Positions 999 through 47,152 of a stretch of DNA of 64,000 bases are shown here, piece after piece. Under the pieces are notes generated by a model, which worked only from the letters and a program-made list of their open reading frames with translations, was not told the DNA's origin and searched no databases. Numbering within the stretch: the stretch's first letter is position 1; every line of letters starts with the position of its first letter. The position numbers and the translations under genes were made by a program. The DNA is from Spirochaetota bacterium (GTDB taxonomy: Bacteria > Spirochaetota > UBA4802 > JAFGDQ01), in the NCBI GenBank assembly GCA_016932015.1, contig JAFGDQ010000059.1, positions 1-64,000 on the forward strand. Reading direction: 5' to 3'.

Positions 999-1994
999 TT
1001 ATTCTCCGTATCTCTGCGCCTCTAAAAAGACTTCATCTATTTTTTTTCGAGTGTATTCAACAGAAGATAAATTCAGAACGTATCTACCCCTTTCAATTAG
1101 CCTAGCTGTGCTTTCGCCAAATATACAATTTAATTTACTTCTATTAAGAACTGGTATTGAATCTGATATTTCAACAATAGAAGGAGTACCGTCAGACTTC
1201 ATTGAAAAATTCAAACTAGAGGCTTCAGTTAAAGAATTCAAGACAACATTTATTCTATTTTCCAAAATTTCTTTTACAGCAGAGGTCAATTTTTCAGAGA
1301 TCGAATTTACCAGAAATTTAATAGATTTACCACCATCCTCAATGGGAGTATGAAAAGCATGAATGATTACTATCCATGAACGATCTGCATCTAACTGCTC
1401 AAAACTTGAAATTTCTACTACATTTATTTGTTTTGAAGTAGTTTTAATTTCAATTGCTGTTCTTCCAAATGAAAAATCATTTGGCTGCCCCAGTGGTCCG
1501 GTCCAGTTTAGCACTATAGAATCAGGGTCTATTTTAGAATTTTTCAGAACCAAGTAGATTACATAGAGTTCTCCCCATAAACCTACAAGAGTAAATGGGG
1601 ATGGTGTAAGGGGTTGAGCTAAAATCGCCTTGTATTGATTATAAGATTTGGTTATAGAGTCTTTTGGAGAATAATTTTCTGTAATAATATTGTTTGAAAT
1701 GGAATAAAAGAAATCCAGAACTGCTTCCAACAGGTTTGGCAATTCGCATTTAATGGCCAGATAACTGTAATTTGCAGTATTGGCCTTTTCGTAAGTAAAT
1801 CTAATCAGGTGTGGAAGGGATGAAATTTCTGTAGAAAATGATTTATCATCTCTCATTTGCAACTCAATCCCCATTGAAGGTCTGATCACTAACACACATC
1901 GATCAGACCCATATAATGGAATCGGAGTATCATGATCATTCTTCAGGTAACTGCATAAGGATTGCCAATTCAACATTTTTGAATGATCAGGCAT
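999..1994 (-). CDS. PD-(D/E)XK nuclease-like protein (DUF4420 family)
   Basis: The 331-residue protein matches the DUF4420 family of PD-(D/E)XK nuclease-fold proteins that travel with Z1 ATPases and AIPR proteins. The candidate active-site residues are present: Glu142 in GLWGELYV, Asp173 in GQPNDFSFG and Glu182-x-Lys184 in AIEIKTTS. An intact nuclease centre is therefore plausible. Its start overlaps the end of the AIPR gene by eight bases and its stop is one base from the Z1 start, which indicates translational coupling. The likely role is the DNA-cutting subunit of an anti-phage or restriction-like system. No partner methyltransferase is visible in the window, so self-protection is unexplained unless it is encoded beyond the left edge. 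Confidence 0.8.
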   Translation of the reverse strand: MPDHSKMLNWQSLCSYLKNDHDTPIPLYGSDRCVLVIRPSMGIELQMRDDKSFSTEISSLPHLIRFTYEKANTANYSYLAIKCELPNLLEAVLDFFYSISNNIITENYSPKDSITKSYNQYKAILAQPLTPSPFTLVGLWGELYVIYLVLKNSKIDPDSIVLNWTGPLGQPNDFSFGRTAIEIKTTSKQINVVEISSFEQLDADRSWIVIIHAFHTPIEDGGKSIKFLVNSISEKLTSAVKEILENRINVVLNSLTEASSLNFSMKSDGTPSIVEISDSIPVLNRSKLNCIFGESTARLIERGRYVLNLSSVEYTRKKIDEVFLEAQRYGE

Positions 1995-3723
1995 TCAACC
2001 ACTCCTCTGTTTCAGCTTTTTGTACAACAAGTTTCCAAGTATTTTCTCTTTTTGCGTGCTCCTTTATAGAACGGTCAGTACCTAAAGCAATAAAAAAGGA
2101 ATGCACCTTTTCGAGAAGAATCTTCATTTTTTCATCTATCATCAGAGGGACTTCCTGCCCCATATGGATTCTTTCAAGGTATTCAGGAAAATTTGTAGAC
2201 CATGATAAAATTGCACATGCATATTCAACGATACAGGAGCGACCTTCACCAATTCCCATACTACGAGCAAGTTTTGTAATGCTTTTTACAAGAATGACTT
2301 TACCAATAAGCTTCCTGTACCAGTCCAAATCAGGTACAAATCCTTCCGGAATGTTCTCAAGAAAATCTACCTGACATTTTGTTTCACCACGTGAAGAAAT
2401 CCATGGTTTCTGTGCAAATATGCACTCTACTCGAGCAACAATTCCTTTTTCAATAGAAAAAATTTTAGGATAGGTTTCTTCAAATTTCTTACGCTCAATA
2501 TGTCCACGCTTTTTATTCTGTGCCAATTCTGCATCATATTCTTTCCTGACTCGACTGAAATACCATTTATATTGTTCGGTTCCCTTTCTAAATACAGCTT
2601 GTGTTGAAAGCTCTTTTATTTTTCTATAAAGTGGATTATGTGAACTTAGGTCTGCTTCCTTAATGGCATTTTGGGTGTTTGAGGTTTCTGCTATCCGCTC
2701 AATCCAGTCCATGTGCTTTTCCTGATGTTTTACATGAATTATTTTTGCAGTGACCATTACACTGGACAGACATTCAGATATATTAACATTATATTCATTT
2801 GCCAGAACAGCTATTGTCTGACCACCATTTACAATTTGGGTATCTTCAATTCGGTTAAGGTCATTTTGAGGTGAAAGCAAAATATTACTCACTGTAATTG
2901 TTAGTCCATTGTTATAAGCAAGAAAGCGTTGCGGTTGTGTTAATATTGTTTCTTGTATTTTTTTGTTCTTTTTCCCCCTAAGGCCAAGGAATGCTCTGAC
3001 GTTTTTTTGAAGCAATCGTTGTCCATGTTCTCTGAATGATTTGGCGAGTGATATAGCTGGGAAAGCGGCTAAATAAACATCATGGTCGTCCATTTCATGT
3101 ACAAGAAAGCATTTAACAATATTTCCATCAAATTCAATTGTCGGGCCTTGTGCTGCCCCCTCGCTGCTCAGACAAAGGTCTTCAATGCCGCAAAATCTGA
3201 AATCTGTATGGATGTCTTCAGGTAGTTTGTTTTTAAGCCTTGTTCTGAACTTCTTCTGCAGATTGGGAATAGTGATGCTTGAGTCGGTAATTACTCGAAC
3301 AAGTATTGATTCGGGGCATGGTATAAGGTTTTGGATTCTTCGAATCAGGCTCTCGACTGATGTTGGAACAACACGTTTAGTCGGGATACAGAGACTATGT
3401 AGAATAGCTATGGTTTTTTCAAATGCATTTGTGATTTCACTCTTTATTTCTTCTTCGGGTTTATTTCCTTTAATAAAAAGAAGAAACTCTACAATTGGTT
3501 GATCATTTTCTGGCCAACAAATGGCGTCAACCCTGTATCCATACTCATCTATCAGTACAATCTCAGGCTCATCGATGAGCATCCCTGATTCATAGAGAAT
3601 CTCGGAACAGGCTCTAACAAATGATTCCCTTTCTTCATTGTTCGTTGTACATTCATCATACAGTTCGATCTGGCGGTTTTCCAATTCATTGTGGAAAAGT
3701 GCGATTGTGTTAATATCAATCAT
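1987..3723 (-). CDS. AIPR family (abortive infection phage resistance) protein
   Basis: The 578-residue protein carries the AIPR domain named from lactococcal abortive-infection proteins. Signature segments are RAFLGLRGKK (243-252), RFLAYNNGLT (266-275) and TQIVNGGQT (295-303), followed by a helical C-terminal half. The N-terminal 200 residues include a VDAICW / IVEFLLFIKG stretch (65-86) that looks like part of a degenerate nuclease fold. It is the first gene of the leftward AIPR, DUF4420, Z1 operon. In many islands these three families occur beside a cytosine methyltransferase and a MORC-type ATPase; neither is here. Family assignment is firm; the molecular activity of AIPR proteins is poorly known. 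Confidence 0.85.
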   Translation of the reverse strand: MIDINTIALFHNELENRQIELYDECTTNNEERESFVRACSEILYESGMLIDEPEIVLIDEYGYRVDAICWPENDQPIVEFLLFIKGNKPEEEIKSEITNAFEKTIAILHSLCIPTKRVVPTSVESLIRRIQNLIPCPESILVRVITDSSITIPNLQKKFRTRLKNKLPEDIHTDFRFCGIEDLCLSSEGAAQGPTIEFDGNIVKCFLVHEMDDHDVYLAAFPAISLAKSFREHGQRLLQKNVRAFLGLRGKKNKKIQETILTQPQRFLAYNNGLTITVSNILLSPQNDLNRIEDTQIVNGGQTIAVLANEYNVNISECLSSVMVTAKIIHVKHQEKHMDWIERIAETSNTQNAIKEADLSSHNPLYRKIKELSTQAVFRKGTEQYKWYFSRVRKEYDAELAQNKKRGHIERKKFEETYPKIFSIEKGIVARVECIFAQKPWISSRGETKCQVDFLENIPEGFVPDLDWYRKLIGKVILVKSITKLARSMGIGEGRSCIVEYACAILSWSTNFPEYLERIHMGQEVPLMIDEKMKILLEKVHSFFIALGTDRSIKEHAKRENTWKLVVQKAETEEWLNA

Positions 3724-12756: not shown

Positions 12757-14151
12757 TCAGGATTTATTTCCCGTATTTTCAATCATCATTTCCCTGAATA
12801 TTTCGAGTCTGTTTTTGAACTGCTGATGATTATAGGAACGCGGATCAAAATTTTCCCATTCCATAACCATTACGGGAATGCCGAGCTCCTTTTTTACCGC
12901 TTCCTCAATCAGCAGGGCATCGGCAACTACAGCTCTGCATCCGACATGATACCTGTCAAGAACACCGTTAACCTTTAATTTTTTACACGCGTTTATGATC
13001 AGCGGAATTCTGCCATAGGGCGGAAGTTCCAGAGAGACCTGCTGCGAACCCAAAGCCATTTCAAGATAAGGATCATCAGAATGTTTTTTTGATTTCTCCC
13101 CCATTGTAAAATCAATTCCCACGACAGCAATACCGACTTCACATAACAGATATTCCAGTCTCGGATCTGTCTGCCCGGCAGGGCAAATTGCCAGTACCCT
13201 GGGTGCTCCTTTTTCAACATCGCCCTCACCCCTGGCTGCTTTTTCTTTAAGTTCATTGCAAAGCATATTGATCGCGTCAGTTGCTTCTTCAATGCCGTCA
13301 ATAGTTGAAGTAAGCGAAAGCAAACACCCCCAGATATTCTCATGAGAAGAACTTATAAGCAGAGGATCACTATTAATGACAATTTTCCTCATTTCTGTTA
13401 TTGCCTTTTCCAGTTTCCTCTTAGTCTCCTTAACCTGAATAAGTAAATCATCCTCTATTTCGAAACCTGTAATTGACTGCACTTTCTCTACAAAACGTTT
13501 TATGCTCTCAGCAGTTAATTTGGCCACCCTGTCCGAGGGACCGGGATATTCTGTTATAGCCCTGTCCTTAAAATGATCAATATACCATACCGGAATATCA
13601 TAAAGTTCATGCAGTATATCCAGTGTCTTGGAAGAGGTTTCACAGGTATATGCTGATGTTACAAGCATATCCGGATTTGGAAATAATCCCATGGAAAGCG
13701 GTCCTGCAATAGTTTTCACATTCGCGCAGTGAGCTACTGCACCAGCCTTTAGCCAGGTCTTTTCAGCATCTTCCAGCACAGGTACTATCTTGCCGAATAT
13801 GCATCCTATGACAATATGAAATGCCCAGCTGTGATGTATTGAAAACACCTTGTCAGATTTTGTCATAAAAGCGGAACCTAATAAATCAATTCCGGGGCAC
13901 ATAAACCCGTAAATAAGTTTTTCCCTGCCGTCCTCTTTTGCGAGTATTGCGTTAACAAGTTCTTTGATGATCAGTCTGAATACTTTTCTGAGACCCTGCA
14001 AATCTATATCATAGTATTTATGAAGTCTTTGTTTTCCTGTTTCAATATCTTCATCGGTTATACCGAGTCTTTTAAAGACTTTTTCAATTCTTGCCAGTTC
14101 CGTTTCAGGTTCCTTATCTGTAAAGCCGCATAATTTCAGAAGTTCTTTCAT
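12757..14151 (-). CDS. 2-hydroxyacyl-CoA dehydratase / benzoyl-CoA reductase-like subunit (464 aa)
   Basis: This is a FldB/FldC (HgdB, BcrB/BzdO) family subunit, which forms the Fe-S heterodimer that either dehydrates a 2-hydroxyacyl-CoA or reduces an aromatic acyl-CoA. Cysteines suited to cluster binding are at 85 (GFMCPG), 142 (AHCANVKTIAG), 170 (AYTCETSS) and near 410 (YHVGCRAVVAD). The C-terminal half has the family segment IPVMVMEWENFDPR. It shares one base with the upstream gene (TAATG), so the two subunits are translationally coupled. The length pattern of the operon (389, 464, 289, 262) resembles the bzdNOPQ type of class I benzoyl-CoA reductase, but sequence alone does not settle the substrate. 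Confidence 0.85.
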   Translation of the reverse strand: MKELLKLCGFTDKEPETELARIEKVFKRLGITDEDIETGKQRLHKYYDIDLQGLRKVFRLIIKELVNAILAKEDGREKLIYGFMCPGIDLLGSAFMTKSDKVFSIHHSWAFHIVIGCIFGKIVPVLEDAEKTWLKAGAVAHCANVKTIAGPLSMGLFPNPDMLVTSAYTCETSSKTLDILHELYDIPVWYIDHFKDRAITEYPGPSDRVAKLTAESIKRFVEKVQSITGFEIEDDLLIQVKETKRKLEKAITEMRKIVINSDPLLISSSHENIWGCLLSLTSTIDGIEEATDAINMLCNELKEKAARGEGDVEKGAPRVLAICPAGQTDPRLEYLLCEVGIAVVGIDFTMGEKSKKHSDDPYLEMALGSQQVSLELPPYGRIPLIINACKKLKVNGVLDRYHVGCRAVVADALLIEEAVKKELGIPVMVMEWENFDPRSYNHQQFKNRLEIFREMMIENTGNKS

Positions 14152-15320
14152 TATTCCACCTCCTCCTTTACCATTTCAATAAAAGCTTCTATGCGTGTTT
14201 TAAACTGTCCAATATCTGCTGTTCCATAATCAGCCTCAAGTATCAGCATAGGAATATTTTGTTCAGACAATTTCTGAGTAAAGAAGTAAGCTTCAGAATC
14301 ATAAACTTCACAGTCCAGTAATTCGTACCAGATAACACCGGAAACATGAAAGTCACTAATCAGTTTTGTCATGAATTCCAGTCTCTTTCCTGCAGAGCTG
14401 CTCATAAACGCGCACGGCACTCTGTCGGTCAGATAACCTTTTGCAAGAGACTTCATCAAATCATCACCGGCTTCAATTTCATTCCAGTAATACCTTACAC
14501 CTTCACAAATCTCTTCAATAACTATGTTTCCTCCGGCTGCCTCGACGAGTTCAGGAACCCTGTAATCTCCCATTGCAATATTCGGCCCTGCAAGCAGCAG
14601 ACGCGGTGCGTCATTATCTGAAGCAGTATTACTTTCTGCAAGTTCTCCGTATATCTCTTCCAACACTTCAGTCATAAATACAGGATCCGCGTAAAAAGAT
14701 ACATGGTTCAGCTTTATGAAATCCATGGAGCTTATAACGGAAGTATTTGAAGTCCGCATTAAGCTGATCTTTCTTAAAAGCTGCCGCATGCGGTTATACA
14801 GCTTAACCGCATCTGTTAGTTTTGCATCTGTAACTTTATTTCCAGTCAGCGCCTGAAGTTTATCCTTCAGAGCATCAAGTCTTTCAGCAAAATCATTAAC
14901 CTCCAAACCGTCATAAACCTGATGAGGAATACCTAGCTTGAATACTTCAGGCTCTCCTCTGTACTCCCAGATCTCCGCGGTTTTTCTCAAATGCTGGCAT
15001 GTTATCGGAGCAACCACCATATCAACGGCACTGTAAAAAGGATTTTCTTTAAGCATCATTTCGCCGATTAGAGCGCGGGCAAAAGGACATATAACACGGG
15101 GTACGGAGGAAAGTGCAGTTTCAGCAGGTTTGGGGTTCCCGCCGTGAATGAGACAGAGGGGTACGGCTCCTGACGCGTATATCAGTTCTTCAGGAACGTA
15201 ATTCCCGGGGAAAAATCCGACTATTTTAACACCGTTCCTTTTCGCTTCTTCCAGCTCAGACGGCCTGTTTCTCAAATGAGTGTCAAGACGTTCATTGAAT
15301 ATAAAACATTCATTGTTCAT
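14151..15320 (-). CDS. 2-hydroxyacyl-CoA dehydratase / benzoyl-CoA reductase-like subunit (389 aa)
   Basis: This is the smaller Fe-S subunit of the same family. Features are GFFPGNYVPEELIYASGAVP (36-54), cysteines 56 (PLCLIHGG), 78 (VICPFAR), 108 (PITCQHLRK) and 337 (LDCEVYDS), and the C-terminal family signature ADYGTADIGQFKTRIEAF (363-380). An upstream in-frame extension of 59 codons exists, but the ATG at 15320 has GGAG eight bases before it and gives the standard family length, so that start was chosen. It heads the leftward operon with the 464-residue subunit and two ASKHA ATPases. Together they form an ATP-dependent, oxygen-sensitive enzyme acting on a CoA thioester in the cytoplasm, in amino-acid fermentation or aromatic degradation. 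Confidence 0.85.
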   Translation of the reverse strand: MNNECFIFNERLDTHLRNRPSELEEAKRNGVKIVGFFPGNYVPEELIYASGAVPLCLIHGGNPKPAETALSSVPRVICPFARALIGEMMLKENPFYSAVDMVVAPITCQHLRKTAEIWEYRGEPEVFKLGIPHQVYDGLEVNDFAERLDALKDKLQALTGNKVTDAKLTDAVKLYNRMRQLLRKISLMRTSNTSVISSMDFIKLNHVSFYADPVFMTEVLEEIYGELAESNTASDNDAPRLLLAGPNIAMGDYRVPELVEAAGGNIVIEEICEGVRYYWNEIEAGDDLMKSLAKGYLTDRVPCAFMSSSAGKRLEFMTKLISDFHVSGVIWYELLDCEVYDSEAYFFTQKLSEQNIPMLILEADYGTADIGQFKTRIEAFIEMVKEEVE

Positions 15321-15443
15321 TATGTTTTCTCCGTATGTTGATCTGTGTCTGCAGAAAAAACAGATAACATTATATTTTAATTTTTTATATTTTCCGAATG
15401 AACAGCCAGCCGCAAAAAGCGGGACATCAAAGCCTGAAAAATC

Positions 15444-15464
15444 CTCCCGCGGCAGGCCGCGGAG
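15444..15464. repeat. CCGCGG hairpin repeat, copy 1
   Basis: CTCCCGCGGC, AG, GCCGCGGAG forms a GC-rich hairpin followed by AATAATACCGAAAAAGATT. Similar hairpins followed by AATTAAACCAAAAGAGATT or TATCAAA occur at 30132-30151 and 30179-30196, and a related one at 29168-29189. It lies in the 332-bp gap upstream of the dehydratase operon; nothing else but a weak promoter is seen there. Confidence 0.55.
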
Positions 15465-15517
15465 AATAATACCGAAAAAGATTAAAGAGAAAACCAAGAG
15501 TTAATATCAATCATTTG

Positions 15518-15652: not shown

Positions 15653-15976
15653 TTATTCTTTTTTATCCGGAAAGCCCCACAGCGGATCGTTTCCGAACTT
15701 ACTGTCCCAGAATGCTTCAGGATCATCAAAAGCAGTTTTGCCGGCATTTTCCTTTCCAGGGGAAAATTTATAATTAAAACAAAAGGCCGTTAAAGTTTTA
15801 TAGGCTTCAATAATTTTCTGAGTCATCTCTTTGCATTCTTCAGGAATCTTTTCGCAATGATCAGGATGCCATTTAAAAAGAAGTTCCTTATAGGAAAGAT
15901 TAATATCATTTATTGAAAATTCCGCGGGCAGATCCAGTATTTTGATCGCATCAATAATCGAATCAGATTTATTCAT
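15653..15976 (-). CDS. Small J-domain protein
   Basis: The 107-residue protein is essentially one J domain: an amphipathic helix with YKELLFKWHPDH carrying the HPD motif (residues 36-38) that stimulates DnaK ATPase, then the MTQKIIEAYKTL helix. It lacks the Gly/Phe region, zinc fingers and substrate-binding domain of DnaJ, so it is a type III-like co-chaperone or a specialised recruiter of Hsp70. The C-terminal 40 residues are acidic and tryptophan-rich (AFWDSKFGNDPLWGFPD). It stands alone, 155 bases before the sulfotransferase-like gene on the same strand. Its client is unknown. Confidence 0.8.
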   Translation of the reverse strand: MNKSDSIIDAIKILDLPAEFSINDINLSYKELLFKWHPDHCEKIPEECKEMTQKIIEAYKTLTAFCFNYKFSPGKENAGKTAFDDPEAFWDSKFGNDPLWGFPDKKE

Positions 15977-16149: not shown

Positions 16150-16767
16150 TTAAAGAGTGCCTGCGCCTGCTCTCTGCCTGTATAGGGTTCTGTCAATTAC
16201 TGCTGACATTTTCTCTGTATCAAGTTTATTTTCCAGAAATTCGTTAATCTCTTTTGACTTCTGCAGCGAACTGTTTATTACTTCATTATAATTGATATAA
16301 ATAACATCCATATTATTCCTTGCGGAAATCCATTCTTTAATATCTTTTATATGATTTCTGTTTTTTAAAATCATTTCCTTATCTGAAAGGCCGCTTCCTG
16401 CATTATTTAACCGTTCAAGCATTTTATTTTGCGAATTGATGATCTCTCTCATATCGCGCTCCATAAAAATGATCCTGTAACGGTTTTGTTCAGGAAGAAA
16501 ATACAGCAGGGGAGATACAATCTTTACAGCCTTGCCGCCGCAATCCTGAATCCAGGATATATCATTCTTGATTTTCCTTGTTTTTTCAAATTCATAATAA
16601 CCTTTAAGATTATTATCATCAGCAGTTCTTTTCCCGTCTGTCATTATATCAAGACCGCCTGCTTCCAGCATCTGCATCATCATTGACGTACCTGAACGCG
16701 GCAGTCCTGAAACTATAATGATATCCTCATTTTTTTGGTCGGTTTTTTTTGTGAACAAAGATTTCAT
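16150..16767 (-). CDS. Sulfotransferase-family protein
   Basis: The 205-residue protein starts its fold with IIVSGLPRSGTSMMMQML (residues 17-34), the P-loop-like 5'-phosphosulfate loop that binds PAPS in sulfotransferases. A later RIIFMERDMREIINSQ segment (about 94-109) fits the 3'-phosphate binding region. It is shorter than most sulfotransferases (about 250-300) and may be a minimal form. No signal peptide is seen, so it should be cytoplasmic. It sits beside a sulfatase-like hydrolase on the opposite strand; a shared sulfated or phosphorylated substrate is possible but not shown. Confidence 0.75.
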   Translation of the reverse strand: MKSLFTKKTDQKNEDIIIVSGLPRSGTSMMMQMLEAGGLDIMTDGKRTADDNNLKGYYEFEKTRKIKNDISWIQDCGGKAVKIVSPLLYFLPEQNRYRIIFMERDMREIINSQNKMLERLNNAGSGLSDKEMILKNRNHIKDIKEWISARNNMDVIYINYNEVINSSLQKSKEINEFLENKLDTEKMSAVIDRTLYRQRAGAGTL

Positions 16768-17134: not shown

Positions 17135-18598
17135 ATGTTCAAACAAAAAATATTATTTATTACCGGCCTTATTATTTGTGCAGCAATTGCACTTACCATA
17201 TCTTTAAATTTTGCTACAAATAACAGCTACTTTCCGAATATGGACCTGAATCCGGTGGAAACCCTTACCAAAAAAAATAAAGAGAATAAAATTGTTTTTA
17301 TTTTAATTGACGCGCTAAGGCCGGATCATCTCAGCTGTTACGGCTATGAGCGTAATACATCTCCCGCAATTGACAAAATTGCCGAAGAGGGAGTTACATT
17401 CACAAATGTAATAGCAAATGCACCATGGACAAGGCCCTCCACCGCAAGTATATTTACATCACTGCACGCGTCTCAGCACGGAGTCCAGACGGAAAAAGCA
17501 GGCCTTTCGCGAAACTTTCTGACACTCGCGGAAGTGATAAAAGACTCAGATATAAAAACCGCGGCTGTAATAGGAAACGGCAACGCGAGTTCAGCATGGG
17601 GCCTGGATCAGGGATTTGAGGATTACATGGATACCAGGGAACACTGGGAAGGCCTTCCCAATGCTCAGATGGTATTTGACCTTGGCAGGGAATGGCTGCA
17701 GAAAAATAAAGATAATAACTTTTTTCTGACCTTATTTGCAATTGATCCTCACAGCCCTTATAAATCGCCGGCAGAATACGAAGAGCTTTATACAGACCAG
17801 CCCCGGGACAGGATTATCAGAAGGCCCAGATGGCAGTACAAAAAAGGCGAGAACCTTGATCCCCGGACAGTAAAAAATACAATCGGCCTGTATGACGGTG
17901 CGATAAAATACACGGATGATGTAATCAGGGATTTTGTCAGTGAACTGAAAAGACTAGATATTTACGATAATACTACGCTCATAATAACAGCAGACCACGG
18001 CGAAGGATTCGGCGAACACAACCGTTACCGTCACGGCTATCATTTCTATGATGAAATAATACGCGTACCGCTTATAATAAAATCTCCGCTTATCAAAGAA
18101 AAGGGAGTAACCTATGACCGTTTAACCGCGCTTATAGATCTGTATCCTACAATACTCGATCTGTACAATATTCCGGTCCCCGCAGCATGTGAAGGAATTT
18201 CTGTATTTAATAAAAATAAAAAAGCTAATTATCAGCACGAAAGAGTGATCTTCAGCGAATACAACAATTTCGGCCTTCATAATCAGTGCGTGAGAACAGC
18301 TAAATGGAAGCTTATATACGAAGCAAAAGCGGACATCGAAGTCTTTGACAGCTACATTAAAGACAGAAGCCTGCTGCCGCTCTTCCTTCTGGACAAAGAA
18401 AAATATGAACTATACAATCTTGAATCAGATCCGTTTGAAAAAAACAACCTGATCAGAACCGAAAAAGCAACAGCAGATAAAATGAAAGCAAACCTGAAAT
18501 TATTCCTGAGCAAAAGCAAAAAGGCCGTCAACGAAGTCGAAGGAGAAATAGACCCGGCTGTTATGGACGACCTGAAATCCCTCGGATACACGCGTTAA
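17135..18598 (+). CDS. Sulfatase-like hydrolase/transferase without the formylglycine motif
   Basis: This 487-residue alkaline-phosphatase-superfamily enzyme has an N-terminal membrane anchor or signal (about 5-27), so it acts outside the cytoplasm. The metal site is visible in FILIDALRPDHLSCYGY and ITADHGEGFGEH. The catalytic stretch reads APWTRPSTASIFTSL, which puts Thr where sulfatases have the Cys or Ser that becomes formylglycine, and the following CxPxR arginine is also Thr. It therefore looks like a phospho-ester hydrolase or transferase, as in other Thr-nucleophile members such as LTA-synthase types, not a true sulfatase. The C-terminus ends DDLKSLGYTR, echoing the tail of the small protein at 19489-19689. 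Substrate unknown. Confidence 0.85.
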   Translation: MFKQKILFITGLIICAAIALTISLNFATNNSYFPNMDLNPVETLTKKNKENKIVFILIDALRPDHLSCYGYERNTSPAIDKIAEEGVTFTNVIANAPWTRPSTASIFTSLHASQHGVQTEKAGLSRNFLTLAEVIKDSDIKTAAVIGNGNASSAWGLDQGFEDYMDTREHWEGLPNAQMVFDLGREWLQKNKDNNFFLTLFAIDPHSPYKSPAEYEELYTDQPRDRIIRRPRWQYKKGENLDPRTVKNTIGLYDGAIKYTDDVIRDFVSELKRLDIYDNTTLIITADHGEGFGEHNRYRHGYHFYDEIIRVPLIIKSPLIKEKGVTYDRLTALIDLYPTILDLYNIPVPAACEGISVFNKNKKANYQHERVIFSEYNNFGLHNQCVRTAKWKLIYEAKADIEVFDSYIKDRSLLPLFLLDKEKYELYNLESDPFEKNNLIRTEKATADKMKANLKLFLSKSKKAVNEVEGEIDPAVMDDLKSLGYTR

Positions 18599-18657: not shown

Positions 18658-19467
18658 CTACATCCGAACCCCAAGCAATTTTTTGAAAACAAGCCCGAAC
18701 ACAATAGTAAGCATACTGAAAAGCACAAGCCAGTGCATCTCCAGGCCCGGTAAATTAACAGTCCTCGGTTTGTAATCAATTGCAATTTCGCGTATATTCG
18801 TATCTGCTGTCAGGGATTTATTGGAAGGATATAATAATTTGTAAAAACCGGGTTTTAAAATTATCCTGGGGGTAAGTTTTACCAGTGTATCATCAGCTGC
18901 AATGATGTTTTTATACAGTACACTATCATCAATATTTATCTTAATATTATGCCTGCCCGGTTTATCAGCGGAAATTCTCCAGGAAATTTCATTATCCTCC
19001 GCTATTCTCAATGCAGGAGTATCAATATTAATCCCTTCACCTGGTTCAATGCTTATTTTATTAAACGCATTTTTATCATCAAGTATCACTCTGAAAACAG
19101 CTGACCCTTTAGTACTTAAAGGCTCATAACCGAGCCATTTCTGCATCTGAAAGACACAAACAGACATAGGTATTATTACAATGAGTACAGGCTTTAATAT
19201 TGACGTCAGAAATTTGAGATTAAATCTAAGTATATTCTTCTGAGCAGACAGAAGAATCCTGATATTATCTTTATAAAGAGGGATCTCAAGCAGATGGGCA
19301 ATTATGCGCCTTTTTGCGAACTTTACTCTTTTGCTGTTTAACGTCATACGAAAGACAATCATCACAAAAATGCCTGCAGCCAGTGACACTATAAGAACAG
19401 GCCATACAGGATCAGCTTTCCTGAAAGGGTCAAATATCAAATTAAAAAAATTATTTAAATACAGCAT
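18658..19467 (-). CDS. Membrane protein resembling the YidC/DUF106 group, with extracytoplasmic domain
   Basis: The 269-residue protein has a hydrophobic segment at about 23-41, then a charged cytoplasmic helical hairpin (LNSKRVKFAKRRIIAHLLEI... RILLSAQKNILRFN), a second membrane segment at about 90-106, a beta-rich extracytoplasmic domain (about 115-240) and a final membrane segment (245-265). The first half resembles the Oxa1-superfamily layout (YidC, archaeal DUF106), in which a cytoplasmic coiled coil sits between membrane helices. The resemblance is by pattern only. It closes a leftward operon behind two phosphodiesterase-like proteins and a small RHH-like protein, so it may help place or assemble an envelope component. 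Confidence 0.55.
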   Translation of the reverse strand: MLYLNNFFNLIFDPFRKADPVWPVLIVSLAAGIFVMIVFRMTLNSKRVKFAKRRIIAHLLEIPLYKDNIRILLSAQKNILRFNLKFLTSILKPVLIVIIPMSVCVFQMQKWLGYEPLSTKGSAVFRVILDDKNAFNKISIEPGEGINIDTPALRIAEDNEISWRISADKPGRHNIKINIDDSVLYKNIIAADDTLVKLTPRIILKPGFYKLLYPSNKSLTADTNIREIAIDYKPRTVNLPGLEMHWLVLFSMLTIVFGLVFKKLLGVRM

Positions 19468-19488
19468 AACAGTAAAAATTTAACCTGC

Positions 19489-19689
19489 TTATTCAATATA
19501 TCCAAGCCCCTGCAGCTGCTTTTCCATATCTTCATCAATTCCGGGTACTTTGCGGTTTTTCTTTAATTCTTTTTCAAGAAGATGTGTAATGAATTCTTCG
19601 ACACTGCTGTAGCCCGCAGTTAATGAATATTCCCTGCTCATATCAAACAGATCTTTATCGATTTTAATTTTTGCAGTCTTCATTTTCAT
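19489..19689 (-). CDS. Small ribbon-helix-helix-like protein ending in LGYIE
   Basis: The 66-residue protein begins with a beta strand AKIKIDKDLF and two helices (SREYSLTAGY, SSVEEFITHLLEKELKK), the layout of ribbon-helix-helix DNA-binding or antitoxin-like proteins. A short linker leads to MEKQLQGLGYIE at the C-terminus. It lies three bases after the stop of the 674-residue phosphodiesterase-like gene. No toxin-like partner adjoins it, so a plain antitoxin role is unlikely. The LGY ending recurs on the neighbouring sulfatase-like protein. Function unknown. Confidence 0.7.
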   Translation of the reverse strand: MKMKTAKIKIDKDLFDMSREYSLTAGYSSVEEFITHLLEKELKKNRKVPGIDEDMEKQLQGLGYIE

Positions 19690-19692
19690 TTC

Positions 19693-21717
19693 CTATATTT
19701 CATATATTGGTTTACCGGTCATGTTTTCCGGAACCGGAATCCCGTATTCAGCAAGTATTGTAGCAGTAACATCCGGAAGAGCCGGATCTTTTTTTGTTAT
19801 TTTTTTATTTGAAATAAGAACGGCAGGCACATGTGCAGGATCAATGCAATGGTCGCCGCTCCACTTATCAAGATTATTGCTGAAAATTTTACGGGTAAAG
19901 CTTCCAAGAACGGTTTCCCAGGATGCTCTGTACCCTCTGTTCCAGCCTATTACAATATCAGGAACAATGTCATCAGCTCTGTTATAGAGCTCCTTGCCGA
20001 ACCAGATATTTGAGACAGCATTAATTCCTGTTAACGGATCTTTTAAAGCCAGAAGTTCTGTTTTCAGCTTCTTTAATAATTTATCCTCATCCTTCTGTTT
20101 TACTATGCCGTACTTTTCCCTGCCCTCTTTATTCAGATACAAAGCATTAATACCAAGCCCGTATGCCTTACTCTTTGCCCAGTTAAGATTTTTAAAATAA
20201 GTTCCCTTCTCAATGAATTCATTATTAAAAAAAGAAATATACTTGTTCCTGTAAAGCCAGGTATTCAGATTAACACAACGGTAAAACGGAGCAAAACCGT
20301 GATCGGATAAAACAATCAGCCTCAGATTCGGATCTTCAATATTAAACCTGCTGAAGAATTCCCCGAGTACATCATCCATCTCAATGTACAGTTTTTTTAT
20401 AACATCTGAATAGTTGCTTCCGATTTCACGCGTATACAGCGGATGTTTTTTATCTATCGCGCGCCAGAACATATGACTGTCCTGATCCAGGTTCGAAAAA
20501 TAATAAAACAGCATGCCGGATGACTTAGCTTTCAATTTATCGCATTCATACCTGAACAGTGCCCTGCTCTCTTTTAATATCTGTTTTGAATTATCAAGAT
20601 AAGCGTTCTCCGGAAGCACTTCATAACTGAGCGACTTGGTATCTGCAGGAAGCCCTTTTGTATCAAACAGACCGACATTTTCGGCGAGTTCCGCACCGTA
20701 TTCTTCCGGCTGCGTTACAGGCAAAGACTGTTCGGACGGGTCAATATTTACCGGCGATATGTACATTTCAAAGTGAGGATGAATCTGCCTGATGTATAAT
20801 TTGCAAATACCTTTCACTGAGCTGACATGCTTCATTAAATCGAATTCCACCTGCAGCCAGTCACTCCACTCATTTTCCTTCATCAGCATTTCGTACTGCT
20901 GTACTTTAATTTTAACAACACTGTTTTCAGAATCACGCCATATTGTTACAGGTATCTTTGTACCCGGTTTGTTTTTCTTCAATGAATTGACCGGCCCCGG
21001 CAGATAAAGCTCTGATTTATTGTTCTCAAAATTTACAGGAATAACCTTACCGCCTGTAATATTCTTATATATATCAGGACGCGAAGTATAAAAAGAAAAG
21101 GTCCCGTAGGAACCGAGAAGATCAGGAGTGCCCATGCCTGAAACGCTTGTTACGTTTTTATTTGTTTCTTTTGCCGGGAATTCTCCGGGCAGTTTAAACA
21201 CAGTAGTCGGAATACCCGCTTCTCCGAGATACTCCCAGAAAGGCTTTCCCTGCCGGAGCTGCTTAACAGTACCGCCGGAAATGGGAATCTCCCAGTCGCC
21301 TATCTCCACTGTGCCGGCTGAACCTTTCACCTGCGAAGTGGAAAAGAAAGGCGTCATTGCAGCAGGGTCTCTGTGAATAAAATCGAAAATTCCATGCACT
21401 GAAGCCGAAGCACCAACCGCAAAGTCAGACCATGCCACAGGGCTTTGCGGCGGAATGCTGGTCCTCATTTCCTTAAAACCGCCTGTATCAATCAAACGCC
21501 TGAAATTCGGCAGGACTCCCTCTTTAAGCAGCTTTCTTAATATTCGCGGGTCCATGCCGTCTATCCCGATTACTATTACTTTCTTTCCTGTATCTTTTCC
21601 ACTCATTGATCCGGCGCACGAATAAATAAGCGGAGAAAGCGCAAGCGCAGCACCGGCCTTTACTGATTTATCCAGAAATTTTTTTCTGGTTATTTCTTTA
21701 GCTTTATTTTTTTTCAT
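19693..21717 (-). CDS. Type I phosphodiesterase-like lipoprotein (alkaline phosphatase superfamily)
   Basis: The 674-residue protein starts with TRKKFLDKSVKAG, a near twin-arginine motif, and a hydrophobic stretch ending LIYSCAGS, a lipobox with Cys at about residue 34. Export by Tat with lipid anchoring is therefore likely. The catalytic fold follows: VIGIDGMDPRIL (metal Asp), a QSPVAWSDF segment where the nucleophile is expected (Ser in place of the usual Thr), HGIFDFIHR, VLSDHGFAPFYR and SGDHCIDPAHVP (metal Asp/His pairs). It is a paralogue of the 700-residue protein encoded 15 bases upstream. Family members hydrolyse phosphodiesters or phosphomonoesters; the substrate is unknown, possibly a glycan or lipid headgroup of the envelope. 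Confidence 0.82.
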   Translation of the reverse strand: MKKNKAKEITRKKFLDKSVKAGAALALSPLIYSCAGSMSGKDTGKKVIVIGIDGMDPRILRKLLKEGVLPNFRRLIDTGGFKEMRTSIPPQSPVAWSDFAVGASASVHGIFDFIHRDPAAMTPFFSTSQVKGSAGTVEIGDWEIPISGGTVKQLRQGKPFWEYLGEAGIPTTVFKLPGEFPAKETNKNVTSVSGMGTPDLLGSYGTFSFYTSRPDIYKNITGGKVIPVNFENNKSELYLPGPVNSLKKNKPGTKIPVTIWRDSENSVVKIKVQQYEMLMKENEWSDWLQVEFDLMKHVSSVKGICKLYIRQIHPHFEMYISPVNIDPSEQSLPVTQPEEYGAELAENVGLFDTKGLPADTKSLSYEVLPENAYLDNSKQILKESRALFRYECDKLKAKSSGMLFYYFSNLDQDSHMFWRAIDKKHPLYTREIGSNYSDVIKKLYIEMDDVLGEFFSRFNIEDPNLRLIVLSDHGFAPFYRCVNLNTWLYRNKYISFFNNEFIEKGTYFKNLNWAKSKAYGLGINALYLNKEGREKYGIVKQKDEDKLLKKLKTELLALKDPLTGINAVSNIWFGKELYNRADDIVPDIVIGWNRGYRASWETVLGSFTRKIFSNNLDKWSGDHCIDPAHVPAVLISNKKITKKDPALPDVTATILAEYGIPVPENMTGKPIYEI

Positions 21718-21731
21718 TTTAAATGTAAATT

Positions 21732-23834
21732 CTATTGCTTACTATTTATTAAAGATTTTCCCTGCATATAAGGAGGATTCTTTACACCGAAAGCATCAAG
21801 AACAGTCGGTGCAATATCTTTAATATCAGGCTGATCCGTATTTATCTTTTTATTGCAGAAGAATACGCCCGGTACCTGTTCCGGGTCCATACAGTGATCT
21901 CCGCTCCAGTGCTTTGTGTTATCTTCAAAGACCGAATCAGATACAGAACCCGACGCGCATTCCCATGAGTTTCTGTATCCCCTGTTATAGCATACCATAA
22001 GGTCAGGCCCTTCAGATGCATACGGGCCGGAATAAAAATTCTCCGTATCCAGCATTCTGTTAATTGCAGTACAGTTCTTTTCCTTATCAACAAGTCCTGT
22101 TAATTTATCCGATAATTCCTTTTTCAGCTCTGTATATTCATTGTCTTCATCAACAATACCACTGGACTCCCTGCCCTTTTTATTTATGTAAATGCCTGAC
22201 AGTCCGAACGAATAAGCCTTTGTCCTGTCCCAGTCCACATTGCTGAACCATTCTCCCGACCTGTTGCCGTCTTTCAGAAACATATAACCGTTTTCGAGCA
22301 GCCATGTGTTTAAATTCACTCCTCTGTTAAAAGAAGCAAATCCATGGTCTGAAATAACAACGATCATAGTTTTCTTATCAACCTTTTCCAGAATCCGGCC
22401 CAGCATATTATCCATATTGACATACAGATTTTCAATTGTGTCTTTATATTCCATTACCCTTTTATTCTTATTTGACGGATGAGATTCTTCAAGACAACGG
22501 AAAAACATATGCTGAAGACGATCAGTAATATCAAAAACGCACGCGCATAAGCCTTTCGGAGTTTTATCAAGAGCGTTAAACAATATCTGTTCCCGTTCCT
22601 CATGAAATTTATAAGCCTGGTCTATGAATGCATCTTCATCAATAATGCCTTCGTTAAGGGCCCATGTATCTTCGGCAAGTCCGAGAGTAGCGTAATCTCC
22701 TACCATCTTTGAAAGATAAATTGAATAATACGGCGGATGAGAGATCGGAATTGAAGGCTTTTCAGGATCTATGTTTATAGGTGTAACATACATTTCAAAA
22801 TCAGGTTTTATTTTTTTTACATAAAAACGGCATATACCGGATATTTTTCTTTTAAGTCCATTTTTAAAGGACAGCTTCTTCCATTCAGAGTATACTCCTT
22901 CTTTTAACTTAAAAGTATCCGTACCTGTTTTGAACAATGCCTCATTATTTCCATTTAACTGAATTTCCAGAGGAAGTTTTATCTCATCACCGTTTTTCAG
23001 AACTGAATTTTCCGGCCCCGGAATATAAGTGTTTATCCTGTCCGATTTGATGGTAAGCGGTATTTGGATTCCGGCAGTAGTCTCTTTATTGATACTTCCG
23101 TTTGAACTGTAAAAAAGAAAAGTTCCCTGTGTACCTTTAATATCCGGTACGCACATACCGGAAAGCAATGTCCCGTTAAATTTTTCAGGCGGGAATGTAA
23201 TTGGTACGCGCAGAATAGAACTGAAAATATTATATTTACCAAGAATATTCCAGAAAGGAATTCCCTTTCTAAGCATTTTTACCCTGCCGCTTTTAAGAGG
23301 TATCGAATATTTACCCAGTGACAGCATGCGTGAAGGCTTTTCAACTTTTGATGATGACAGTACCGGTTTATACGAACTTAAATCACGATTTAAGAAGTCA
23401 AATATGCTGTGTCCTGACGGATCAACGCCTGTAATGAAAGAAGACCACGCGACAGGCGAAATTGCAGGAGTGGTTGTTTTAAGTTTTCTGAAAGATCCCT
23501 CTGAACTTAGCTGCTTAAAATTAGGAAGTTTTTTTTCCTTTATATACTTCTCAGCAAGAACAGGGTCCATACCGTCCAGGCCGATTATAACAATCCGGTC
23601 AATATTACTGTTTTTTTCCGGTTTTTTTCCACAAACAGACTTTATTAAAAACCGGATCGGCCAGAATATAATAATTAATAGCGCGATAATAATTGTTATT
23701 AATAGTATTGAGAAACCGGAAACCAGGGCAAATCCGGCACCCGGACCTATATATGCCTGAGCTGTTTCTATACCTGTAAAAATAACAATTATAATAGTAA
23801 GAACAGGGATTAATATTTTTTTTCTGAAAGACAT
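21732..23834 (-). CDS. Type I phosphodiesterase-like membrane protein (alkaline phosphatase superfamily)
   Basis: The 700-residue protein has an N-terminal signal segment (about 7-28) ending AQAYIGPGAGFAL, a second membrane helix (about 40-65), and then the same catalytic fold as its neighbour: VIIGLDGMDPVL, ISPVAWSSF, HSIFDFLNR, VVISDHGFASFNR and SGDHCMDPEQVP. The AYIGPGAG motif before the second helix is typical for this membrane-bound subgroup. Metal ligands and the candidate Ser nucleophile are kept in both copies, so both should be active. It leads the leftward operon; the two copies differ in anchoring (two helices here, lipoprotein there), suggesting work at two sites. No Shine-Dalgarno sequence precedes the ATG. 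Confidence 0.82.
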   Translation of the reverse strand: MSFRKKILIPVLTIIIVIFTGIETAQAYIGPGAGFALVSGFSILLITIIIALLIIIFWPIRFLIKSVCGKKPEKNSNIDRIVIIGLDGMDPVLAEKYIKEKKLPNFKQLSSEGSFRKLKTTTPAISPVAWSSFITGVDPSGHSIFDFLNRDLSSYKPVLSSSKVEKPSRMLSLGKYSIPLKSGRVKMLRKGIPFWNILGKYNIFSSILRVPITFPPEKFNGTLLSGMCVPDIKGTQGTFLFYSSNGSINKETTAGIQIPLTIKSDRINTYIPGPENSVLKNGDEIKLPLEIQLNGNNEALFKTGTDTFKLKEGVYSEWKKLSFKNGLKRKISGICRFYVKKIKPDFEMYVTPINIDPEKPSIPISHPPYYSIYLSKMVGDYATLGLAEDTWALNEGIIDEDAFIDQAYKFHEEREQILFNALDKTPKGLCACVFDITDRLQHMFFRCLEESHPSNKNKRVMEYKDTIENLYVNMDNMLGRILEKVDKKTMIVVISDHGFASFNRGVNLNTWLLENGYMFLKDGNRSGEWFSNVDWDRTKAYSFGLSGIYINKKGRESSGIVDEDNEYTELKKELSDKLTGLVDKEKNCTAINRMLDTENFYSGPYASEGPDLMVCYNRGYRNSWECASGSVSDSVFEDNTKHWSGDHCMDPEQVPGVFFCNKKINTDQPDIKDIAPTVLDAFGVKNPPYMQGKSLINSKQ

Positions 23835-39701: not shown

Positions 39702-39740
39702 CCGGTATGAAATCAAAGCAAAAAATTAATTTAATACCGG
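39702..39740. terminator. Possible two-way terminator between convergent genes
   Basis: CCGGTAT (39702-39708) pairs with ATACCGG (39734-39740) around an A/T-only loop. It lies at the convergent ends of the chemoreceptor and the 1293-residue cyclase and overlaps the cyclase's last codons. Confidence 0.3.
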
Positions 39741-42700
39741 TTTGTTTGCAAATGCGTAGCTGTTTTTACCGGACTTTTTTACGGTATACATTGCTTCATC
39801 TGCCAGTTTAATCAATTGCTCCATTTCCGTACAGTCATCAGAATAAAAAGCAATTCCTATACTGGCGGAAATATTAAAAGTCTGTTCTTCAAGCTCAATC
39901 GGCAGGGCAATCTGCGTGATGGCTTTCTTAGCAATGAGTTCAGTATCCTGGGGAAAATTAAGTTCTGCAGCTATGATAAGAAATTCATCTCCGCCTAAAC
40001 GGGCAACTGTATCAGTTTCACGTATTGAACTCTGAAGGCGTTCGGCAACCAGTTTAAGAACGCGGTCTCCCGCGTTATGTCCCAGAGAGTCATTAACTTT
40101 CTTAAAACCGTCAAGGTCAATAAACATAACTGCCCGAATATTCCTGCGCCTGCGTGCCGCGCTCATTGCAACAGACAAACGGTCTCTAACCAGATTAATA
40201 GTAGGCAGTCCGGTTAATATATCATGTGTTGCCATATGGATAATTTTTTCTTCAGCGATCTTGCGTAAATTGATATCCTGTTGTGTTCCGCAAATAAGCA
40301 GCGGTTCGCCGGAGTCAGTCCACGTTACCACCTTTCCTCTTGCCAGTACCCAGACCAAGCTGCCGTTTTTATGCCGCATACGGACTTCAGATTCATAATA
40401 CAAAATTTCTTTTTTAATGTGTTTTTCAACCAGCTCCTTTACTTTGTCAAAATCATCCGGATGAATAAATTTCCGGGGAATCTGATCATCAACAGGCTCC
40501 AGCTCCTCAATAGTATAACCGATCATTTCAGCCCAGCGGTCATTAATTTTGAATTCATGTGTCTGGTAATTCCATTCCCAGGTGCCTGCATTTGTTCCCT
40601 CGAGTATATAGCCGAGACGCTGCCTTTCCATTCCGAGCAGTTCTTCCGCCTGTTTACGGTCTGTGATATCCTGATTCGCTCCTGCCATAAGTAAAGGTCT
40701 TCCGTTATCCGCTCTTTTCACGACTTTTCCCTTATCCAGTACCCATATCCAGCTGCCGTTTTTATGACGCATACGGACCTCACATTCGTAAAACGGAATT
40801 TTATTTTTAAAATGCCTGTCAAATATTTCATTGGCGACTGTATAATCATCCGGATGAATAAATGCGGATGGAGTTTCATTTGTAAGCGGGCCGATTTCCT
40901 TCAGTGAATAACCGATAATTTCAGCCCAGCGTTCATTAAAAATAATTTCATTTTTTTCAATATTCCATTCCCATGCGCCGACATTTGTAGCTTCGAGAAT
41001 GTAGGCCAGCCGCTGTCTCTCTTCGGCAAGCATTTTCTCCGCCAGCTTTCTTTCAGTAATATCAGTTGCTATTGCGCACGTTCCTGTAATTTCATTATTA
41101 TCGTTTCTGATTGGAAAAATTACATTAAGAAGATATCTGCTCCCTTCTTTATTGTCAACGGTTATCTCCCTGTAATTCGTAATGCCCGATTCAATTATTT
41201 TCCTGTCATCGGCAAAAAATTGATTAGCGAGCCCGTCAGGAAAAAAATCCGTATGTGTTTTACCTATTACATTCAAACGGTTAAACCCCGTATGTTCCTC
41301 CCACTTACGATTGACAAGTTCAAAACGTCCATTCAGGTCTTTAACGACAATAGCAGTATCACTATGCTCAATAAGATCGGATAAAAATCTCCTGCTGCTG
41401 CTCAGCTCGTCCTCAGCTTTTTTCCGCTCCGTGATATCAGTACCGATTGCGCATACACCTGTTATTTCATCTTTAAAATTTTTAACAGGATAAATAATTG
41501 TAAGATAATACCTTATGCCGTAAACATGATCTCTTTGAAATTCTCTTTCTTTGGTAATTCCTGATTTCATTACTTCAAGGTCGTCTTCGCGGATTGACTT
41601 TGCCGTCTCTTCAGGGAACAGGTCAAAATCAGTTTTCCCGATGACATATTCCCTGCTGAAACCTGATTCCCTTTCCCATTTTTTATTTACAAGTGTATAA
41701 CGGCCTTCAAGGTCCTTAATACATATAACCGTGCTGCTGTGATCTATCAAATCGGAAAGAAAAGTGCGGCTTTCAATTATTTCCTTTTCTGCCTGCTTTA
41801 ACTGGGTAATATCTGTTCCAACTGAACAAATCCCGGATATCATACCCTGATCATCAATCATAGGATATACGTTGTTTAAAATGATTCTATCTCCTATCTG
41901 AAATTCAAATTCCTTACTGTTGCCCGATTCCATCACCTCCCGGTCATCAGTCATATATTTTAAAGCCCTTTCCCTGTTATCAGGATATATCTCTTCGTCA
42001 GTTTTTCCTATTACTTCCCCGCGCTTAAATCCCGTATCTTTTTCCCATTTCCTGTTGACAAGCACATATCTGCCACTCATATCCTTAACACAAAAACCGG
42101 CAGAACTGTGATCAATAAGTATTGACAGAAACTGACGGTTTTTCTTCAGCTCTTCCTCCATCAGTTTGCGCTCTGTGATATCAGTCCCTATCGCGCATGT
42201 CCCGGTTATAATGCCCTCCTTATTTTTTACTGGAAAGACTACGTTAAGGATATATTTTTCATTATCCCCACAACCAAAAACAAGCTCAAATTCGGCCGCC
42301 TTCCGGGATTCAATGACATGCATGTCATCCTGACGAATTTTAACCGCCTTTTCTTCCGGGAACAGATCTTCATCTGTTTTCCCGAGGGCATCCTTACGTT
42401 CAATTTTATTGTCTTCCTCCCAGATACGGTTTACAAATGTGTAATGGCCGTCTGTATCTTTTATGGTAATCCCGGTAGCACTGTAATCAATAAGCTCTTC
42501 AAGAAAAAGTCTGCTGGCACTTAGCTCCTCTTCCGTTTTTTTCTGCTCCGTAATATCCTGAACAATGCCTACGGATTTTAAAGCATTTCCATCATCATCA
42601 TAGCTGGTTCTGCATATCTCCTTTACCCATTTAACCCTTCCATCCTTCATTAACAGACGGTGGGATATTTCATAGGGTTCTTTCTTTTCCAGGGATTCAG

Positions 42701-47000: not shown

Positions 47001-47152
47001 AGGCTGAATAGCACTAAAATATAACAACTTAGCCATAATAAAATACCCGGAAAGCGTTTCCTGTGCTGCAGCCATAAAGAGAATAAAACTATTATTCCCA
47101 TCAGGCTTATAAAAACAAAAAGAAGAAAAAGAGTTTTAATATCAATTCGCAT
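44054..47152 (-). CDS. Membrane diguanylate cyclase with five PAS domains
   Basis: The 1032-residue paralogue of the neighbouring cyclase has the same membrane region (1-225). Five PAS domains follow (about 240-855), then GGDEF (about 858-1025) with RFGGDEFLIVAAEL, so it is active by motif. PAS 1 differs from the first PAS of the other protein (FSKSFQTSPNAIIISRLEDG); PAS 2-4 and 5 correspond to the two repeated types there. The pair differs mainly in the number of copied PAS units. Both genes run leftward with a 446-bp gap, so they are likely transcribed separately. The signals are unknown; the membrane helices and PAS array suggest redox or small-ligand sensing at the membrane. Confidence 0.9.
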   Translation of the reverse strand: MRIDIKTLFLLFVFISLMGIIVLFSLWLQHRKRFPGILLWLSCYILVLFSLVLILLRDIIPEIFSIVTSNVLLLAGLTAIYAGLEQYLELRTRQFHNYIIILLFILSHSYFTYIVPDLAMRKVNISLGFAVICIQVIWLMFYRVRGHALKAIARIIGLLTALFLLINIIQVINNLVNLQGTHIFQSGTLDAVVILVEEFLLMALVPVLVLLVNKRIALDLESELFLHKQTADELRKSQEKFSKSFQTSPNAIIISRLEDGKIIEVNDALVSITGYSRDELYNDSATGLNLWSDNKDREKMLSILKLESEVKEKEFRFRMKNGEIRTCLLWSQIIRLSGEKYLISSLLDITERKKTQDELIESRHFLSELIDFSGAGISIKDPEGRYTLVNRIWEEGNSLNREDVLGKKDEELFPPETARKFRNDDLSVIESGMTKEFELELDLKNSKKYILNTIFPIKNRNGEITGICAIGTDITPIKRAEDELKSSRRLLYEIVENSPGAICVKDAAGRYTLVNKRWAGYWGFDRNNVLGKTDADLFPEEKATAFSSDDEEILKSGNTRERYFFTENEHGKSYHLTNIFPLKDNNGRIKGVCSIGTDITGSKKAEEELKQSRQFLSILIEHSTSGFCVKDTEGRYILVNRKWEKDTGFERDDVLGKKDEEIYPFDREAALKYMADDREVMESGESKEFEFQIGGRIILNNVYPLKDDKGNISGICSIGTDITERKEAEKLLAEKRQRLAYILEGTNVGTWEWNYQTGELKINDRWAEIIGYTIEELEPIDERMPSKFMHPDDYNKSKELFRKHFRKETPYYEFELRMRHKNGNWIWVFDRGKVVKWTDAGEPQLICGTHQDINLRKIAEEKIVHMATHDTLTGLPAVNLVNDRLSVAISMARRHKSLVAVMFIDLDGFKEVNDTLGHNAGDFVLQQTAKRLQDSVRETDTVARFGGDEFLIVAAELNFPQDAELIAKKAIKHITEPISFEGHTVNLSASIGIAFHSDEYADMEELIKLADEAMYAVKKTGKNNYSFANKPS

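Follow-up and report, generated by a model that had tools for sequence, protein, structure and literature searches.

A widespread bacterial gene set of paired phosphodiesterase-fold enzymes, a ribbon-helix-helix-like protein and a DUF106/EMC3-like membrane protein, with a probable link to sulfate metabolism

What is the role of a compact gene set that places two phosphodiesterase-fold enzymes, a very small ribbon-helix-helix-like protein and a membrane protein head to tail? We investigated this question in a 64,000-nucleotide stretch of DNA (the window hereafter; contig JAFGDQ010000059.1, assembly GCA_016932015.1) from a Spirochaetota bacterium. The four genes occupy 23834-18658 on the minus strand in the order PDE1-PDE2-RHH-MEM (phosphodiesterase 1 and 2, ribbon-helix-helix, and membrane protein), with intergenic gaps of 14 (PDE1/PDE2), 3 (PDE2/RHH), and 21 bases (RHH/MEM). 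Their placement, including the three bases before the 66-residue protein, agrees with that in an initial annotation made from the sequence.

21732..23834, minus strand: PDE1, 700 amino acids, nucleotide-pyrophosphatase-fold enzyme
19693..21717, minus strand: PDE2, 674 amino acids, phosphodiesterase-fold enzyme, predicted to be exported
19489..19689, minus strand: RHH, 66 amino acids, ribbon-helix-helix-like
18658..19467, minus strand: MEM, 269 amino acids, DUF106/EMC3-like membrane protein

Recurrence and phylogenetic spread of the four-gene core

The gene set is real, widespread, and undescribed, and every part lies in or near a known superfamily. We scanned 84,980 species genomes with the PDE alignment and recovered 80 loci (PDE2-seeded), 65 of which carry all four genes, mostly in the window order; in Terriglobia the order is often PDE2-RHH-MEM-PDE1. 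The conserved, unnamed four-gene envelope set proposed in the initial annotation thus does recur, contrary to the possibility raised there that it might not. The record titles name Acidobacteria/Aminicenantes, Desulfobacterales, Poribacteria, Dadabacteria, Planctomycetes, Nitrospirae, Omnitrophota, Sumerlaeota, Eisenbacteria, Gemmatimonadetes, Armatimonadetes, Kiritimatiellae, and others, and the four-gene core is conserved in roughly a dozen phyla, most of them uncultured. Pfam, NCBIfam, PADLOC, and the literature searched gave neither a name nor a description for the set. In many Aminicenantes (e.g., loci L029, L034, and L061), a third, shorter PDE paralogue of about 430 amino acids precedes PDE1.

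In an independent test seeded from MEM alone, 71 MEM loci with their flanks were compared with 29 random 20-kb stretches taken from genomes of the same set. RHH was present in 71/71 and PDE in 70/71 of the MEM loci, and neither was found in any of the 29 controls. Strong RHH matches (E < 1e-13) likewise separated genomes with MEM (40/40) from genomes without it (0/40), and MEM is usually present in one copy per genome. Among the phyla sampled, MEM was found in 66/247 Acidobacteriota and 10/247 Desulfobacterota, but in only 1/296 genomes of the window's own phylum. The nearest relatives lie in Desulfobacterota (48% for PDE2 and 54% for the downstream sulfotransferase, SulfoT), and this, together with the rarity of the set in its own phylum, suggests that the window organism gained the set horizontally.

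Sulfotransferase and sulfate-activation genes beside the core

Two further genes lie next to the core in the window, SulfoT being of the type that uses 3′-phosphoadenosine 5′-phosphosulfate (PAPS).

16150..16767, minus strand: SulfoT, 205 amino acids, small PAPS-type sulfotransferase, downstream of the cassette on the same strand
17135..18598, plus strand: sulfatase-fold enzyme (PF00884) whose nucleophile position holds Thr99, on the opposite strand, a looser neighbour

SulfoT matches PF00685 (34.7 bits, cut-off 22), and both its P-loop (R24-S25-G26-T27) and its 3′-phosphate-binding residues (R104/S112) are invariant in 21 sequences. Homologues were found near the cassette in 28/71 MEM loci against 0/29 control stretches, and genome-wide in 21/40 genomes with MEM against 2/40 without (Fisher P = 3e-6). 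In three Desulfobacterota loci (L209, L211, and L212), SulfoT is the fifth gene, 4-6 base pairs after MEM on the same strand. The initial annotation had recorded the sulfotransferase simply as lying beside the set; it is indeed there, and the counts make it a statistically linked partner rather than a mere bystander. Downstream of SulfoT on the same strand lies a J-domain protein of 107 amino acids (15653-15976, minus strand; PF00226, 34.5 bits).

Genes of sulfate activation also recur beside the set. Sat, CysC, CysD, or CysN was found in 11/71 MEM loci against 0/29 controls (P = 0.03), SulfoT or an activation gene occurs in 35/71, and four loci (L145, L146, L152, and L156) share the order CysD-CysN-PDE-PDE-PDE-RHH-MEM. 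Adenosine 5′-phosphosulfate (APS) kinase was matched in 36/40 genomes with MEM and in 25/40 without. CysC has weaker RHH paralogues nearby, at distances of up to about 3 kb, in genomes without MEM as well. Twenty CysC regions were read, and operons of the RHH-Sat-PDE-CysC type were seen at L314, L315, L318-L321, L325, and L327, where an LGY-tailed RHH is the first gene and a PDE, a SulfoT (L315), or neither stands between Sat and CysC; one genome without MEM has this arrangement too. At L326:5434-6159, the CysC open reading frame runs on into a segment that resembles RHH and has LGYLE at its end, apparently an RHH fused to CysC; a Pfam scan gave APS kinase as the only clear domain, the RHH-like part being recognised by an RHH profile built in this analysis. 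In one single-chromosome genome (G296 C1:52092-52652; L266, L315), the sulfotransferase that separates Sat from CysC carries one in-frame TAA inside the match.

The initial annotation had suggested a role in trimming or moving an envelope polymer that contains phosphate, and nothing that we found points to such a polymer. Under this explanation, PDE1, PDE2, and the sulfatase-fold enzyme would act by cleavage or transfer on phosphodiesters in a glycan or lipid of the envelope, and the neighbourhood of SulfoT would be incidental. It would accommodate both the complete active site on a PF01663 fold of the nucleotide pyrophosphatase/phosphodiesterase (NPP) type and the sulfatase-fold neighbours with a Thr nucleophile, a residue typical of phosphoethanolamine and phosphoglycerol transferases. 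However, recurrent polymer-biosynthesis genes were not recognised among the clustered neighbours, and the neighbours that do recur are sulfate-activation and sulfotransferase genes, so we consider phosphate-polymer remodelling unlikely. Because SulfoT is statistically linked to the set and sulfate-activation genes recur beside it, sulfation is the better lead. The cassette is probably linked to sulfate metabolism, which is a stronger claim than the order of steps proposed below, and we lean towards reading it as the membrane-bound part of a pathway for sulfation in bacteria.

Several observations weigh against the sulfation reading. An APS kinase (CysC) match was not found in the window's own genome, a metagenome-assembled genome that is 91% complete, so that the supply of PAPS there is uncertain. 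This SulfoT is missing from about half of the genomes with MEM that were sampled, mostly small ones. The locus counts ignore shared ancestry, and several of the Acidobacteriota loci are close relatives. Finally, the sulfatase-fold neighbour (PF00884, 179 bits), although present in 15/71 MEM loci against 1/29 controls, has Thr99 (TRPST) at the formylglycine position in the window, and among 47 sequences this position is Thr in 37 and Cys in none. As the C/S-x-P-x-R motif is absent, the gene was rejected as a formylglycine sulfatase by motif, and the sulfatase neighbours were dropped as support for sulfation because the formylglycine Cys is missing, nor do they speak for a removal of sulfate; of the sulfatase-like assignment made earlier, the fold family is what survives.

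Protein features and a proposed order of steps

PDE1 and PDE2 match PF01663 almost equally well (102.7 and 102.8 bits, respectively; cut-off 23), and both carry SGDHC(I/M)DP. The conserved active-site residues, which include D87, S126, D438, H442, D496, H497, and H647 in PDE1 and correspondingly D53, S92, D411, H415, D472, H473, and H623 in PDE2, are essentially invariant in both paralogues (about 145 relatives aligned), and the nucleophile Ser is replaced by Thr in just two relatives. Because the metal-ligand and nucleophile residues are almost invariant, both enzymes look catalytically intact, and their initial description as two phosphodiesterase paralogues with a Ser nucleophile is borne out. 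The two form separate clades in the tree (support 0.999 for PDE1 and 0.972 for PDE2), and the pair is therefore an old duplication that has stayed together.

The paralogues are predicted to work on opposite faces of the membrane. PDE1 begins with a hydrophobic N-terminus (AQA followed by YIGPGAG), and one more membrane helix precedes the catalytic domain. The net charge in the window protein is +4 after the second membrane helix and 0 before it; in PDE1 sequences with YIGPGAG (n = 57), the mean net charge is +6.3 after the second hydrophobic segment and 0.07 before, with after exceeding before in 56/57. The positive-inside rule applied to these flanking charges predicts a catalytic domain on the cytosolic side. 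PDE2 carries a motif (TRKKFL) like that of twin-arginine translocation (Tat) signals, followed by a possible but atypical lipobox (IYSC); twin-arginine-like signals begin 42/81 of its relatives, and PDE2 is for this reason predicted to be exported. The earlier view that the two enzymes are differently anchored therefore stands, and the reading of PDE2 as a lipoprotein is weakened by the atypical lipobox.

The AlphaFold model of PDE2 has a predicted local distance difference test (pLDDT) score of 91.9, and Foldseek matched it to ENPP1, Xac NPP, and phosphonoacetate hydrolase, with E values between about 1e-11 and 1e-10. Such a fold, closest to nucleotide pyrophosphatases, could also serve nucleotide housekeeping, in which the PDEs would destroy PAPS, 3′-phosphoadenosine 5′-phosphate (PAP), or related nucleotides and so limit sulfation, with RHH as the sensor. 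A predicted cytosolic PDE paralogue between Sat and CysC would fit this explanation, but PDE2 is predicted to be exported to where PAPS should not be, and MEM would be left unexplained; we therefore hold housekeeping to be very improbable.

The window MEM matched nothing in Pfam or NCBIfam above threshold, and NCBIfam has no model for its relatives. A 65-member MEM profile searched with hmmsearch against 177,635 PDB sequences gave a sole match up to E = 10, to MJ0480 (5c8j; E = 1.9e-8), collinear over positions 5-118 and with a weak second segment at the third transmembrane helix (TM3). Pfam EMC3_TMCO1 was matched by 33/65 MEM relatives (best 3.8e-7). The PF01956 cut-off was not reached: the best of seven members scanned singly scored 24.1 bits against 27.1, 0/8 MEM genomes exceeded the cut-off, and among control genomes the family was matched in three archaeal and no bacterial ones. 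MEM is accordingly taken as related to PF01956 and, being below its gathering cut-off, not filed as a member. All eight MEM genomes tested also contain an ordinary YidC, and MEM was rejected as YidC proper, since hhalign gave 0.2% probability against the YidC (PF02096) of the same genomes. Judged from its sequence, MEM is Oxa1-like and stands closer to the archaeal DUF106/EMC3 branch than to YidC. The Oxa1-like front half recognised earlier is thus confirmed and refined to DUF106/EMC3-like, with the 269-residue protein resembling the Oxa1 group by sequence (MJ0480) and predicted topology, contrary to the other possibility raised there, that it might fold unlike this group, and showing no profile similarity to YidC. 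An extra single-sequence MEM match in the phylum (L004) was set aside as CdaR/YbbR-like by position (FolP-CdaA-PdxJ context, by eye) and not a relative.

The AlphaFold model of MEM (pLDDT 91.8; predicted template modelling score, pTM, 0.84) runs from TM1 (about 21-42) through a coiled coil (about 45-88), TM2 (to about 112), and an immunoglobulin (Ig)-like domain (about 120-243) to TM3 (246-265). Loop 43-88 has a mean net charge of +5.6, which by the charge rule would place the coiled coil in the cytosol and therefore the Ig-like domain outside. The best 50 Foldseek matches of MEM in the PDB were mostly Ig-like or other beta domains, with no Oxa1-superfamily protein and none at E ≤ 0.001. MEM may be a true EMC3/DUF106-type insertase or chaperone that places PDE1 or another operon product, with RHH docking on the coiled coil or regulating and with sulfation as one user. 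The collinearity with MJ0480, weak TM3 match included, the three helices and coiled coil of the model, the strict co-occurrence of RHH and MEM, and the presence of the core without SulfoT in many genomes are all consistent with an insertase. Nevertheless, YidC is already present in every genome tested, a single MEM per genome that keeps the same gene partners throughout hints at a narrow role, and insertases do not feature an Ig-like insertion, so that we doubt this explanation and think it improbable.

The ribbon-helix-helix character assigned at first to the 66-residue protein persists in weak form: 19/40 RHH relatives match RHH_1 weakly (best E = 8.4e-5), the RHH of L045 scores 19.8 bits against a cut-off of 20.5, and among solved homologues NikR was matched at E = 0.026, also weakly. 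K7 and K9 are nearly invariant, and the C-terminal LGY is invariant (LGYI in the window). The inverted repeats that lie upstream of PDE1 are rich in A and T, and we did not interpret them as RHH sites. One tail pattern, EExIxxRLxxLGY(I/L/V/M)x(0-2), is common to RHH, C-terminally extended CysC, sulfatase-fold enzymes, and some PDEs at many loci; in the window it ends both RHH (19489-19506) and the sulfatase-fold gene (18578-18598). Non-RHH proteins ending in LGY numbered 16 in MEM loci (0.85 expected) and 1 in controls (0.45 expected). Four of the 16 are CysD, in which LGY is probably the natural end; we take LGYM to be the ordinary C-terminus of the CysD family and do not count it as a special tail.

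From the parts, their conservation, and their linkage, all obtained by computation, we infer a chemistry, a substrate, an action for MEM, and an order of steps, this order being a guess with a poor chance of being right as a whole. PAPS would be made by Sat or CysDN plus CysC, and SulfoT would sulfate an envelope precursor on the cytosolic side of the membrane. On this side, too, PDE1 would act on a phosphodiester, either a lipid- or a nucleotide-linked intermediate. MEM, with its positive cytosolic coiled coil and outside Ig-like domain, might pass the product across or hold it or its enzymes at the membrane, as scaffold or conduit, and PDE2 would release or transfer the product outside. RHH, as a relative of the RHH proteins of Sat-CysC operons, may repress or tune the set. 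To our knowledge, bacterial sulfation of envelope molecules has been little mapped, and a gene set tied to Sat, CysC, and a sulfotransferase in about a dozen phyla makes envelope sulfation testable.

Elsewhere in the window, two adjacent open reading frames (12757-15497, minus strand) resemble, by eye alone, 2-hydroxyacyl-CoA dehydratase subunits of the HgdB/HgdC type. An AIPR protein, of an abortive-infection-type phage resistance family, lies at the window edge (1990-3723, minus strand; PF10592, 209 bits), and two very large multi-PAS diguanylate cyclases (GGDEF) lie close together (39729-43607 and 44057-47152, minus strand). Rfam found no RNA in the window, and five of the proteins, when compared with PADLOC, matched no defence system.

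Comparison with known systems

Taken as a whole, the cassette would be a dedicated envelope sulfation machine with a bacterial EMC3/DUF106-type member of the Oxa1 group distinct from YidC, an outside Ig-like domain, a pair of PDEs on opposite faces, and control by an RHH family that also occurs in sulfate-activation operons, a combination that we put forward tentatively and with more doubt than conviction. SulfoT resembles small PAPS-dependent sulfotransferases (PF00685) in its P-loop RSGT and its 3′-phosphate-binding R/S residues, and differs in being about 190-205 amino acids long and encoded with the cassette. RHH shares with CopG/NikR ribbon-helix-helix proteins the beta strand-helix-helix pattern and a conserved K-x-K strand but, unlike them, is without a metal domain, has the invariant C-terminal LGY tail, and is the companion of MEM. 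The PDEs are like the NPPs ENPP1 and Xac NPP (PF01663) in fold, metal ligands, and nucleophile position, with about 12% identity in structure alignments; however, they have Ser where NPPs have Thr, a large inserted beta region, and paired paralogues predicted on opposite membrane faces.

MEM is similar to archaeal DUF106/MJ0480 (Ylp1) and to EMC3/TMCO1 (PF01956) of the Oxa1 superfamily in its three membrane helices and the coiled coil between helices 1 and 2. In contrast to these, it is bacterial and belongs to a PDE/RHH operon, and its helices 2 and 3 are separated by an Ig-like domain of about 120 residues. With YidC (PF02096), the known bacterial Oxa1-superfamily protein, it has in common a proposed superfamily and the overall core topology, but MEM has three core helices and YidC five, profile similarity was not detected, and YidC is present in addition. 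Five-helix YidC is found in bacteria and three-helix DUF106/EMC3 in archaea and the endoplasmic reticulum, and which core is ancestral has been left open (PMC7618853, PMC8887752); a three-helix relative that is widespread in bacteria alongside YidC is directly relevant to that question.

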